Assembly (NCBI RefSeq): GCF_030053155.1
Contig: NZ_CP125640.1
Span: forward strand, 1,240,001-1,304,000
Length of the DNA: 64,000 nt
Direction of reading: 5' to 3'
Source of the DNA: Rhizobium sp. BT03
GTDB lineage: Bacteria; Pseudomonadota; Alphaproteobacteria; Rhizobiales; Rhizobiaceae
The notes below the pieces were generated by a model. It was not told the DNA's origin. It saw nothing but the letters and a program-made list of their open reading frames with translations, and searched no databases. Both the position numbers and the translations under genes were made by a program. Of this stretch, positions 7,868-9,597 are shown one piece after another; the stretch's first letter is position 1; each line of letters opens with the position of its first letter.

Positions 7868-7927
7868 TTGACTTTTTTTTCGTTCGGGACCACCTAGCAC
7901 TCACGTGGACGGCACTCGTCTTCCACG
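7868..7927 (+). promoter_or_regulatory. Candidate promoter and 5' hairpin of the mgtE transcript
   Basis: TTGACT at 7868-7873 is a good -35-like hexamer. The -10 region about 17-18 bases later (around CACCTAGC) is weak. Downstream, CGTGGACG (7904-7911) can pair with CGTC-TTC-CACG (7917-7927), with three bases bulged, around the loop GCACT. It would form the first hairpin of a leader transcript ending at the mgtE start. Transcription start is not established. Confidence 0.35.
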
Positions 7928-7951
7928 GATTTCAACGGAGCCATCTTAACG

Positions 7952-8008
7952 ATGCCAAGCGACAGTAGCAGTCGATTGCCTTTGCCGTACGCGGCCCTCG
8001 TGCGCTGA
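7952..8008 (+). CDS. Putative mgtE leader peptide, 18 residues
   Basis: ATG at 7952 opens a frame reading MPSDSSSRLPLPYAALVR and stops at TGA 8006-8008, 63 bases before mgtE. A GGAG lies 13 bases upstream, which is distant but usable. The peptide has Pro and Asp early and a PLP motif. That composition resembles the Mg2+-sensing MgtL leader of Salmonella, where low Mg2+ destabilises ribosomes on Pro/Asp-rich codons and changes downstream RNA folding. The similarity is in design, not in homology I can prove. The stop codon is immediately followed by a hairpin and an SD-masking complementarity, the arrangement expected of a translational attenuator. It could still be a chance ORF. Confidence 0.5.
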   Translation: MPSDSSSRLPLPYAALVR

Positions 8009-8067
8009 CCGACTCCTGTCGGCTCGCCCGTTCGGGACGCTACGGCGGATCGACGGAAAGGCGAGCC
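8009..8067 (+). promoter_or_regulatory. Candidate attenuator: SD-sequestering helix before mgtE
   Basis: Directly after the leader stop, CCGAC (8009-8013) pairs with GTCGG (8018-8022). GGCTCGCC (8021-8028) is perfectly complementary to GGCGAGCC (8060-8067), which overlaps the AAGG Shine-Dalgarno region 5-12 bases before the mgtE ATG at 8072. The two helices share bases 8021-8022, and ribosomes on the leader would cover the first arm, so leader translation could decide which helix forms. These pairings are read directly from the sequence; their use in regulation is inference. Confidence 0.5.
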
Positions 8068-8071
8068 TCAC

Positions 8072-9445
8072 ATGAATATCAATCGCTTCCCTCTTCGGGC
8101 AGGCCATGCCGCCCGTGCCTTCATCAACAACAGCCGCGGCGCAACGATCGCCGAACGCGTCGATGCGTTGAACGCGCTCACCGTCCAGGATGCCGGCCGC
8201 GTGCTATCAGGCATGCCGCTCGACTACGCCGTCAACATCCTCGACCGGCCGGAGCTTCGCAACGCCGCGCAGATCCTGGCGCTGATCAGTGCCGAGGATG
8301 CCGCACGGCTGCTGCATGGCATGTCCAACGACCGTGTCGCCGACGTGCTGCTCGAACTCGACGGGGAGACCCGCGGCCGGCTGTTCGCCAGCCTCGACGA
8401 GCCGGTGCGCATCGCGATCCAGCACCTGATGGGCTATCCGCCGCGCACGGCCGGCGGCATCATGACGACGGAATTCGTCAGCGTGCCCGACAGCTGGACC
8501 GTCGCCCAGACGCTCGACCATGTGCGCCAGGTCGAACGCTCGCGCGAGACCGTCTACGCCATCTATGTGCTCGACGAGGTGAGCCATGCGCTGATGCATG
8601 TGGTGACGCTGCGCCGCCTCATCACCGGCGAGCCGGATGCTTCCATCCTCTCGGTGGCGCAGAAGGGCACGCCGGTTTCGGCGGATCCGCTGATGAAGCA
8701 GGAGGATGTCGCCCGGCTGATCCGCAAGCACGACCTGCTCGCTTTGCCGGTCACCGACGACCATGGGCAGGTGCTCGGCATCGTCACCGTCGACGACGTG
8801 ATCGACACGATGATCTCAGACACGACGGAAGCCGCCCAGAGGTTCGGCGGCATGGAGGCGCTCGGCCAGCCCTATATGAAGATCGGCTTTGCCGGCATGA
8901 TCCGCAAGCGCGCCGGCTGGCTCGCCGCACTCTTCCTCGGCGAAATGCTGACGGCAAGCGCCATGCAGCATTTCGAAGGCGAGCTTGAGAAGGCCGTGGT
9001 GCTGACGCTGTTCATCCCGCTGATCATGAGCTCGGGCGGCAATTCCGGTTCGCAGGCAACTTCGCTGATCATCCGGGCCCTGGCGCTCGGCGAGCTGAAG
9101 CTTTCGGACTGGTGGAAGGTGCTCCTGCGCGAACTGCCGACCGGCATCGTGCTCGGCGCGATCCTCGGGCTCGTCGGCTTCATCCGCATCGTCTTCTGGC
9201 AGTCGGCCGGCCTCTACGACTACGGCCCGCACTGGCAGATGGTCGCCGTCACGGTGTTTGCCGCCCTGATCGGGATCGTCACCTTCGGCTCGATCTGCGG
9301 CTCGATGCTGCCCTTCCTGCTGCAGAAGCTCCGGCTCGACCCGGCCAGCGCCTCAGCCCCCTTCGTCGCCACGCTGGTCGACGTCACCGGGCTCGTCATC
9401 TACTTCTCGGTGGCGCTGCTCATCCTCAGCGGGACGCTGCTGTAG
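8072..9445 (+). CDS. mgtE: Magnesium transporter MgtE
   Basis: The 457-residue protein has the full MgtE architecture: an N-terminal superhelical domain (about 1-130), two CBS domains (about 135-260; PVTDDHGQVLGIVTVDDVID marks the second), a connecting helix, and five transmembrane helices (about 290-457). The membrane part contains SSGGNSGSQATSLIIR, the conserved pore sequence of the family. MgtE is a dimeric Mg2+ channel of the inner membrane that closes when the cytosolic domains bind Mg2+. A 5' leader with a short ORF and complementary segments precedes it, suggesting control after transcription start. No partner gene is in the unit; a palindromic repeat follows. Confidence 0.95.
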   Translation: MNINRFPLRAGHAARAFINNSRGATIAERVDALNALTVQDAGRVLSGMPLDYAVNILDRPELRNAAQILALISAEDAARLLHGMSNDRVADVLLELDGETRGRLFASLDEPVRIAIQHLMGYPPRTAGGIMTTEFVSVPDSWTVAQTLDHVRQVERSRETVYAIYVLDEVSHALMHVVTLRRLITGEPDASILSVAQKGTPVSADPLMKQEDVARLIRKHDLLALPVTDDHGQVLGIVTVDDVIDTMISDTTEAAQRFGGMEALGQPYMKIGFAGMIRKRAGWLAALFLGEMLTASAMQHFEGELEKAVVLTLFIPLIMSSGGNSGSQATSLIIRALALGELKLSDWWKVLLRELPTGIVLGAILGLVGFIRIVFWQSAGLYDYGPHWQMVAVTVFAALIGIVTFGSICGSMLPFLLQKLRLDPASASAPFVATLVDVTGLVIYFSVALLILSGTLL

Positions 9446-9456
9446 GGCAAAAAGCT

Positions 9457-9597
9457 GCCCCTCAGCCTAACCCTCTCCCCGTAAGAACGGGGAGAGGGAA
9501 CGTGCCTTGCCAGAGGGATGCGAGGGACGGAGAGGTCGCGGCATATCCCCTTGTTCCCGTTTTACGGGGAGAAGGTGCCGGCAGGCGGATGAGGGGC
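9457..9597. repeat. Rhizobial palindromic intergenic repeat (RIME-like)
   Basis: The element begins GCCCCTCAGCCTAACCCTC and ends GGCAGGCGGATGAGGGGC, so the outer ends are inverted copies. Inside lies the smaller inverted repeat CTCTCCCC-GTAAGAAC-GGGGAGAG, and further on CCCGTTTTACGGG. Elements with the CTCATCCGCCTGCCGGCACCTTCTCCCC signature type are dispersed in Rhizobium genomes. It sits between mgtE and the convergent Lrp gene, where it may also act as a transcription barrier. Confidence 0.7.

Follow-up and report, generated by a model that had tools for sequence, protein, structure and literature searches.

A conserved short ORF and interleaved RNA helices in the mgtE leader of Rhizobium point to control of translation initiation

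The 5' leader of mgtE in Rhizobium sp. BT03 is probably a leader-ORF attenuator that acts on translation initiation; we put the probability of this reading at roughly 0.6. The calculations presented here give a conserved short ORF, three covarying helices (A, B and P3), and displacement of helix B when the ORF arm of helix A is free. Helix B covers the Shine-Dalgarno sequence of mgtE, which suggests that it is initiation that is controlled. The leader is not a chance feature: it is conserved in relatives and turns up again in one genus from another class. Overall it gives the impression of a widespread control switch, standing ahead of mgtE, corA and a number of uncharacterised genes for membrane proteins.

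The window, that is the whole stretch of 64,000 nucleotides analysed here, holds mgtE at 8072-9445 (forward strand, as for all features below). The gene encodes a Mg2+ transporter of 457 aa that matches TIGR00400 with 344.7 bits, against a cut-off of 232.75, as well as PF01769. The leader ORF, MPSDSSSRLPLPYAALVR, has 18 codons and spans 7952-8008, from the ATG at 7952-7954 to the TGA stop at 8006-8008; the stop lies 63 nt before the mgtE ATG at 8072, just as a preliminary description of this DNA had read it. The ORF is preceded by a GGAG Shine-Dalgarno sequence (7937-7940), which is invariant in 21 genus sequences. Further upstream lies a probable promoter (7868-7896) with a -35 TTGACT (7868-7873), a 17-nt spacer and a weak -10 CACCTA (7891-7896). 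The promoter call draws on a TTGACT-like stretch that is conserved across the genus sequences shown; a consensus scan gave no sigma-70 match. Near the presumed transcript start a 5' hairpin, P0 (CGTGG/CCACG, 7904-7927), covaries within the genus: three of its five pairs are changed on both sides in the 21 genus sequences, with 13 double-changed cells against 4.8 when shuffled. The same genome has a second, distant mgtE elsewhere, and it contains one match to each of two covariance models, R1 and R2, both inside the window.

A scan of named records for mgtE gave 202 relatives, of which the best 80, all labelled Rhizobium, Rhizobiales or Rhizobiaceae, were retained; a leader of the form M[PS]xDSxSR precedes the gene in all 80 of these Rhizobium-type loci. 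A script placed the mgtE ATG 59-63 nt past the leader stop in 79 of them; in L060 the start is GTG. The family and order samples were anchored on mgtE, i.e. they were selected via the downstream protein and not via the leader. In the family sample (39 of the 199 genomes that encode a close MgtE) the leader is found at 24 of the 35 mgtE loci of Rhizobiaceae outside the genus, while 11 are without it. The order sample (33 of 259 genomes) has 24 loci outside the family; here the leader is clear at 19, diverged at three (L209, L212 and L221) and absent from two (L213 and L218). A pattern search gave extra loci, in 42 of 397 order genomes; eight of 30 pattern-search loci lacked a start codon and were taken as chance. 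A 20-mer pattern was abandoned as too specific to Rhizobium; among 10 of its 30 loci, a script that reads one strand showed a leader in five.

The properties of the ORF were calculated from 118 mgtE-anchored leaders, 64 of them distinct in nucleotides and 54 distinct in peptide. Of the 64, 44 are 18 codons long and the others 10-23. All 44 distinct 18-codon leaders start with ATG and end with TGA (31) or TAA (13); L217 uses TTG as its start. The conserved core, GAC AGT NNN AGT CGA or D4 S5 x6 S7 R8, lies at 7961-7975 in the window. Its four fixed codons are found, in this order, in 43, 43, 40 and 43 of the 44, and codon 6 is variable (S, H, Y, R, D or T). Position 4 is acidic in 53 of the 54 distinct peptides, usually as a single acidic residue, Pro2 is found in 48 and Pro12 in 47. 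The preliminary description had proposed to look for a conserved ORF containing PLP; the frame is indeed conserved, but the conserved part is D-S-x-S-R more than PLP.

The core codons AGT and CGA are rare: AGT makes up 4 of 178 Ser codons (2.2%) and CGA 6 of 183 Arg codons (3.3%) in eight genes of the window. Replacements in the core include D to E in L222 and AGC for AGT in L220 and L244, and whole codons are inserted or deleted in L151, L166, L219 and L249. Together with the TTG start, these changes favour a translated ORF. The tail (codons 9-18), which holds arm A, is not conserved as a peptide and shows no excess of synonymous change. Further, a CGAC/GTCG hairpin, PL, may form within the core (7961-7975); it is 98.4% paired and hardly varies. 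In L223 (genome G509) the leader MPSDSPDRSSVPMRRAG is followed by a frame of 57 aa and then by mgtE, so there the switch may act on the extra small ORF.

The RNA helices were studied in 53 curated loci chosen by us: seven from the genus, 18 of the 24 from the family, 17 from the pattern search and 11 order mgtE loci. Their mgtE start codons were assigned manually, going by the letters ahead of the ATG. The regular expression for the leader demanded that the core end on something like CGA; loci it did not match were inspected by eye, and leaders found in this way were added. Forty of the 53 loci were aligned with MAFFT, leaving out L104 and L153, the short forms L159, L161, L165, L206 and L207, and the diverged or odd L209, L212, L215, L216, L220 and L221.

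Helix A, which the preliminary description did not mention, joins an arm inside the ORF, TTTGCCGTA (7981-7989, with the extension GTCGAT at 7971-7976), to the arm A', TACGGCGGA (8041-8049, with an extension to 8054). Helix B joins GGCTCGCC (8021-8028) to GGCGAGCC (8060-8067) and overlaps the mgtE Shine-Dalgarno sequence, read from the sequence as GGAAAGG at 8055-8061. P3 is a hairpin at the stop codon (8007-8022) with the conserved register 8007-8011/8016-8020, and P5 (8030-8051) is a weak hairpin nested in B that overlaps A'; it is GATC/GATC in relatives and has one mismatch here. In the 40-sequence alignment six of the eight counted pairs are double-changed in helix A (83.6% of cells paired) and likewise in helix B (91.2%), compared with four of five in P3 (74.6%) and two of four in P5 (85.5%). 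Jointly, A, P3 and B have 104 double-changed cells against 40.2 when shuffled (0 of 500 shuffles) and 17-29 in slid controls. RNAalifold proposes, unaided, helix B and the core hairpin, and an enlarged alignment of 47 loci gives the same picture for B, P3 and P5. Given its composition, the stretch of 221 nt as a whole shows no unusual stability (z = -0.47), and a stability signal of the whole leader was rejected. When the duplex energies of matched arms were compared with swapped ones, the signal was weak, with a median rank of 0.12 for A and 0.13 for B; the arms are alike between loci.

The preliminary description had placed a hairpin of CCGAC (8009-8013) and GTCGG (8018-8022) right after the stop, and had noted that 8021-8028 is perfectly complementary to 8060-8067, which overlaps the Shine-Dalgarno region. 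Both are present, and the complementarity is conserved and covaries in relatives. It had also let the two helices share bases 8021-8022. This is real in the window but not kept by evolution, because the register slid by two (8007-8011 with 8016-8020) covaries better and leaves 8022 free: it has 24 double-changed cells, against 14 in the earlier register, where shuffling gives 6.4. The slid register takes in bases of the stop codon and barely touches B. That the position of the ribosome could switch mgtE agrees with our calculations in so far as it gates helix B in silico, but the gating goes via arm A and not via CCGAC/GTCGG. Competition between CCGAC/GTCGG and B was therefore rejected as the main switch, given the weak covariation in that register and the strong competitor in the ORF arm of A. 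Loss of the leader frame or of the complementarity in relatives had been named as a refutation; when this was examined, both turned out to be conserved, B with compensatory changes. Overall the earlier interpretation is partly supported.

The arms follow the order A-B-A'-B', so that A and B interleave without shared bases and both could form together as a pseudoknot. How much of helix B is formed at a given position of the ribosome was studied by a nested folding calculation in which RNA is freed by a ribosome at set codons, with arms A and B taken as the best stems in fixed regions. Over the 53 loci, the mean probability of helix B, P(B), is 0.31 for a ribosome at codons 3-6 and 0.70 for one at the stop. 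P(B) is higher late in 47 loci and not higher in six (p = 1.6e-8; the loci are related, so this and the following p-values overstate their independence). In the window it goes from 0.25 with an early ribosome to 0.94 at the stop.

Because a shorter RNA has fewer competitors, the ORF segment was also replaced as a control. With the ribosome at codon 4, P(B) over the 53 loci is 0.29 for the real segment, 0.81 when it is removed, 0.78 when it is dinucleotide-shuffled and 0.71 when it is taken from another locus; the real arm gives a lower value than the shuffled one in 46 of the 53 (p = 1.5e-8). The corresponding values for the window are 0.01, 0.94, 0.86 and 0.80. The calculation was repeated for 24 further loci outside the 53 (the target is another gene at 19, mgtE at one more, and mgtE of the other class at four), where P(B) is 0.21 with the real segment, 0.91 with it removed and 0.81 with it shuffled, real being below shuffled in 22 (p = 1.2e-6). 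In these calculations the second half of the ORF therefore behaves as an anti-sequestor. The start of the best arm A falls at codon 10.7-11.7 in 37 of the 53 loci, about half a footprint past codons 4-6; a ribosome lost or paused at D-S-x-S-R would thus leave A free, and one that moves past would cover it.

The mgtE ribosome-binding site is predicted to be open to nearly the same degree at both positions, 0.453 early against 0.411 late (higher early in 30 of 53 loci, p = 0.02), because the freed bases pair elsewhere in silico. The ORF arm left P(B) unaltered at two corA loci, L266 and L295, and had a slight effect at a third, L294 (0.76 vs 0.91). The switch is thus shown in silico for mgtE, but not for corA. 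In L251 helix B is retained with the arm free (0.99). In L203 and L204 the leader stop lies 2 nt before arm B, so that a terminating ribosome would mask B too.

A mechanism can be proposed along these lines. A ribosome would load on the Shine-Dalgarno sequence of the leader and translate the peptide beginning MPSDSSSR. If translated to the stop, the ORF arm of A would be covered and A' (8041-8054) left free; the P5/B hairpin could then fold and sequester the ribosome-binding site of mgtE, the OFF state. If instead the ribosome stalls or drops off within the first 4-6 codons, or never loads, the free ORF arm would pair with A' and displace helix B, and mgtE would be translated, the ON state. 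The weak spot may be the early codons, Pro2/Ser2, Asp4 and the rare AGT-NNN-AGT-CGA, where low intracellular Mg2+ could make the ribosome stall or dissociate. We infer that the leader is translated and that ON and OFF are assigned in this direction. The signal would be Mg2+: MgtE and CorA, two unrelated families of Mg2+ transporters, stand behind one leader type, which favours it.

Outside the loci anchored on mgtE the leader was followed with the covariance models. R1 matches in 53 of 297 order genomes and, in a class sample of 240 genomes, in the window's own genome alone; R2 matches in 33 of 151 family genomes. Its 10 matches in a phylum sample of 95 genomes comprise seven from the order, one chance-like (L307) and two from one genus of another class. 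Around that genus three of four genomes match, the first one recounted, and their leaders MPSDSKSRSRTTPAVTTA, MSSDSRSRPCSTPAMATA and MSSDSRSRPRSTPAMATA again stand before mgtE, with 11 bp in A and 8-9 bp in B. The MgtE proteins of this genus (L305, L306, L310 and L311) are 64-65% identical to that of the window, against 55-63% for other families in the order to which the window belongs, a hint of horizontal transfer of mgtE together with the leader cassette. Matches L297-L300, L307 and L309 were without a leader and were judged to be chance; L293 is an ambiguous case.

R1 gave 59 matches, of which 43 were examined for the downstream gene; the other 16 were at mgtE loci already counted. The commonest target is mgtE, in 18 of the 43. 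Small proteins of 65-99 aa with one TM segment apparent by eye follow in 11 (L236, L247, L249-L252, L254-L256, L258 and L263), each with its own copy of the leader; the six that were scanned have no Pfam match. An ABC permease, an OprB porin and an iron permease are each found twice, with one of each scanned against Pfam (PF00528, PF04966 and PF04120, respectively). A DUF1003 gene (PF06210, L246) and corA (PF01544, 1.1e-50, L266) are found once, the latter in a genome that also has an mgtE copy, L253. Two downstream genes, L261 and L262, have no Pfam match, and four matches, L267-L270, are without a leader and probably chance. In addition, R2 gave the CorA-like ORFs L294-L296, the DUF1003-like L291, and L308, these being named by likeness alone. 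The presence of DUF1003 (L246) and a DUF1003-like gene (L291) behind the leader suggests a link of DUF1003 to divalent-cation homeostasis. The leader variant at L246 and L291 is MPSNDxSR. Read by eye, the small proteins often have a VFAPV/VFAPI-like motif. Four genomes (G467, G522, G543 and G564) have a leader copy at a small protein and a separate mgtE copy, which is diverged in G467 and G543.

The strongest rival to the attenuator is a Mg2+-stabilised pseudoknot riboswitch, in which A and B together trap the Shine-Dalgarno sequence; Mg2+ would be sensed by the RNA itself, and the ORF would be a bystander or no more than tune the folding. A and B each covary and they interleave, the gap between arm B and A' in L310 is two bases, as suits a coaxial H-type pseudoknot, and the core GACAGT..AGTCGA is conserved at the nucleotide level. 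However, a pseudoknot needs neither a start codon, nor a leader Shine-Dalgarno sequence, nor a stop at a near-fixed place, and the exchanges in the core, the TTG start and the whole-codon indels fit a translated ORF; further, the shortest core, GACAGTCGACAG (L264), is too short for a 4-bp core hairpin. We consider this alternative unlikely. Among known riboswitches, the M-box (ykoK) Mg2+ riboswitch controls mgtE-type genes in other bacteria, but a search of the region against the Rfam covariance models gave no family match even at E up to 5, and a known riboswitch, the M-box included, was rejected on this ground.

The ORF-gated switch might also be the same but respond to another divalent metal, to envelope stress or to the charging of AGU/CGA tRNAs. 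The rarity of the AGU and CGA codons, the lack of an in silico switch at two of the three corA loci, and targets such as OprB porin, iron permease, DUF1003, ABC permease and small membrane proteins would agree with this. It is nevertheless quite unlikely, as mgtE is the most frequent target, corA is present too, and the identified targets include no amino-acid biosynthesis gene of the kind that marks an amino-acid biosynthesis attenuator. Translational coupling, where leader translation opens mgtE and the helices set the strength of coupling alone, would profit from the short stop-to-start gap of about 60 nt and from the masking of arm B by a terminating ribosome in L203/L204; but masking of the ORF arm by the ribosome raises helix B instead of lowering it, which makes coupling highly improbable.

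The attenuator reading can be extended, tentatively, to a mobile codon-level Mg2+ sensor, AGU-N-AGU-CGA after an N-terminal Asp (often with Pro), and to a Mg2+ regulon spanning two classes; this is possible, but we would sooner doubt it than rely on it. If true, the rare, wobble-read codons would be a built-in site of ribosome failure at low Mg2+, in a cassette that two classes of Pseudomonadota carry ahead of mgtE, corA and a number of genes for uncharacterised membrane proteins, and the DUF1003 proteins as well as the membrane-protein family of 65-99 aa would be assigned to Mg2+ homeostasis.

The logic of mgtL is known from enterobacteria, while the control of Mg2+ uptake in most alphaproteobacteria is, to our knowledge, open. 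Like mgtL of mgtA in Escherichia/Salmonella, the leader described here has a short ORF before a Mg2+ transporter, and ribosome progress picks between alternative RNA structures, complete translation being OFF (in our case in silico and with a presumed direction). Early acidic and proline residues occur in both, here usually with a single acidic residue whose destabilising effect is no more than possible. In the sections of PMC11282234 used here, early acidic and proline residues drive the response of mgtL, and drop-off at EPDP under low Mg2+ hides a Rho terminator. In contrast, the rhizobial core is DSxSR with rare AGT/CGA codons, the target genes and the bacteria are others, and the output appears to be sequestration of the ribosome-binding site where mgtL, in those sections, exposes a Rho-dependent terminator. 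The EPDP motif of MgtL is absent from the 53 curated and from 104 genus and family leaders, checked by script, and from further leaders read by eye. For corL of corA in Escherichia/Salmonella, the sections used of PMC11552253 describe two exclusive structures and, as for mgtL, leader translation that is inversely related to transporter expression; corL is there Rho-dependent with few acidic or proline residues, whereas in the present case a single leader type precedes both corA and mgtE.

The nearest published item, going by the text description in part of PMC11109978, is the 'mgtE motif' SRC-65-1. It too is a conserved structure directly before mgtE, in which the base of a long, imperfect stem holds the Shine-Dalgarno sequence and the AUG. 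In that part of the source, however, it is a riboswitch candidate with 32 representatives, from Thioalkalivibrio alone, and is not among the uORF candidates named. No description of the present leader was found among the matches listed in open-licence PMC, judged by titles and the starts of abstracts, and the main text of a S. meliloti Ribo-seq paper (PMC10117765) mentions neither magnesium nor mgtE.

If the attenuator reading is true, translational Mg2+ sensing would have a second and probably independent example, in a leader that lacks EPDP and applies a similar logic to mgtE. It would also provide a regulon that can be tested directly and that counts proteins of unknown function among its members, and would suggest that codon choice, beyond the peptide sequence, can be a sensor.

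Right after mgtE the window contains two related palindromic elements (9470-9576), made up of a perfect inverted repeat of 12 bp (9471-9482/9487-9498) and an imperfect inverted pair of 37 nt; they resemble small dispersed repeats or a terminator region.
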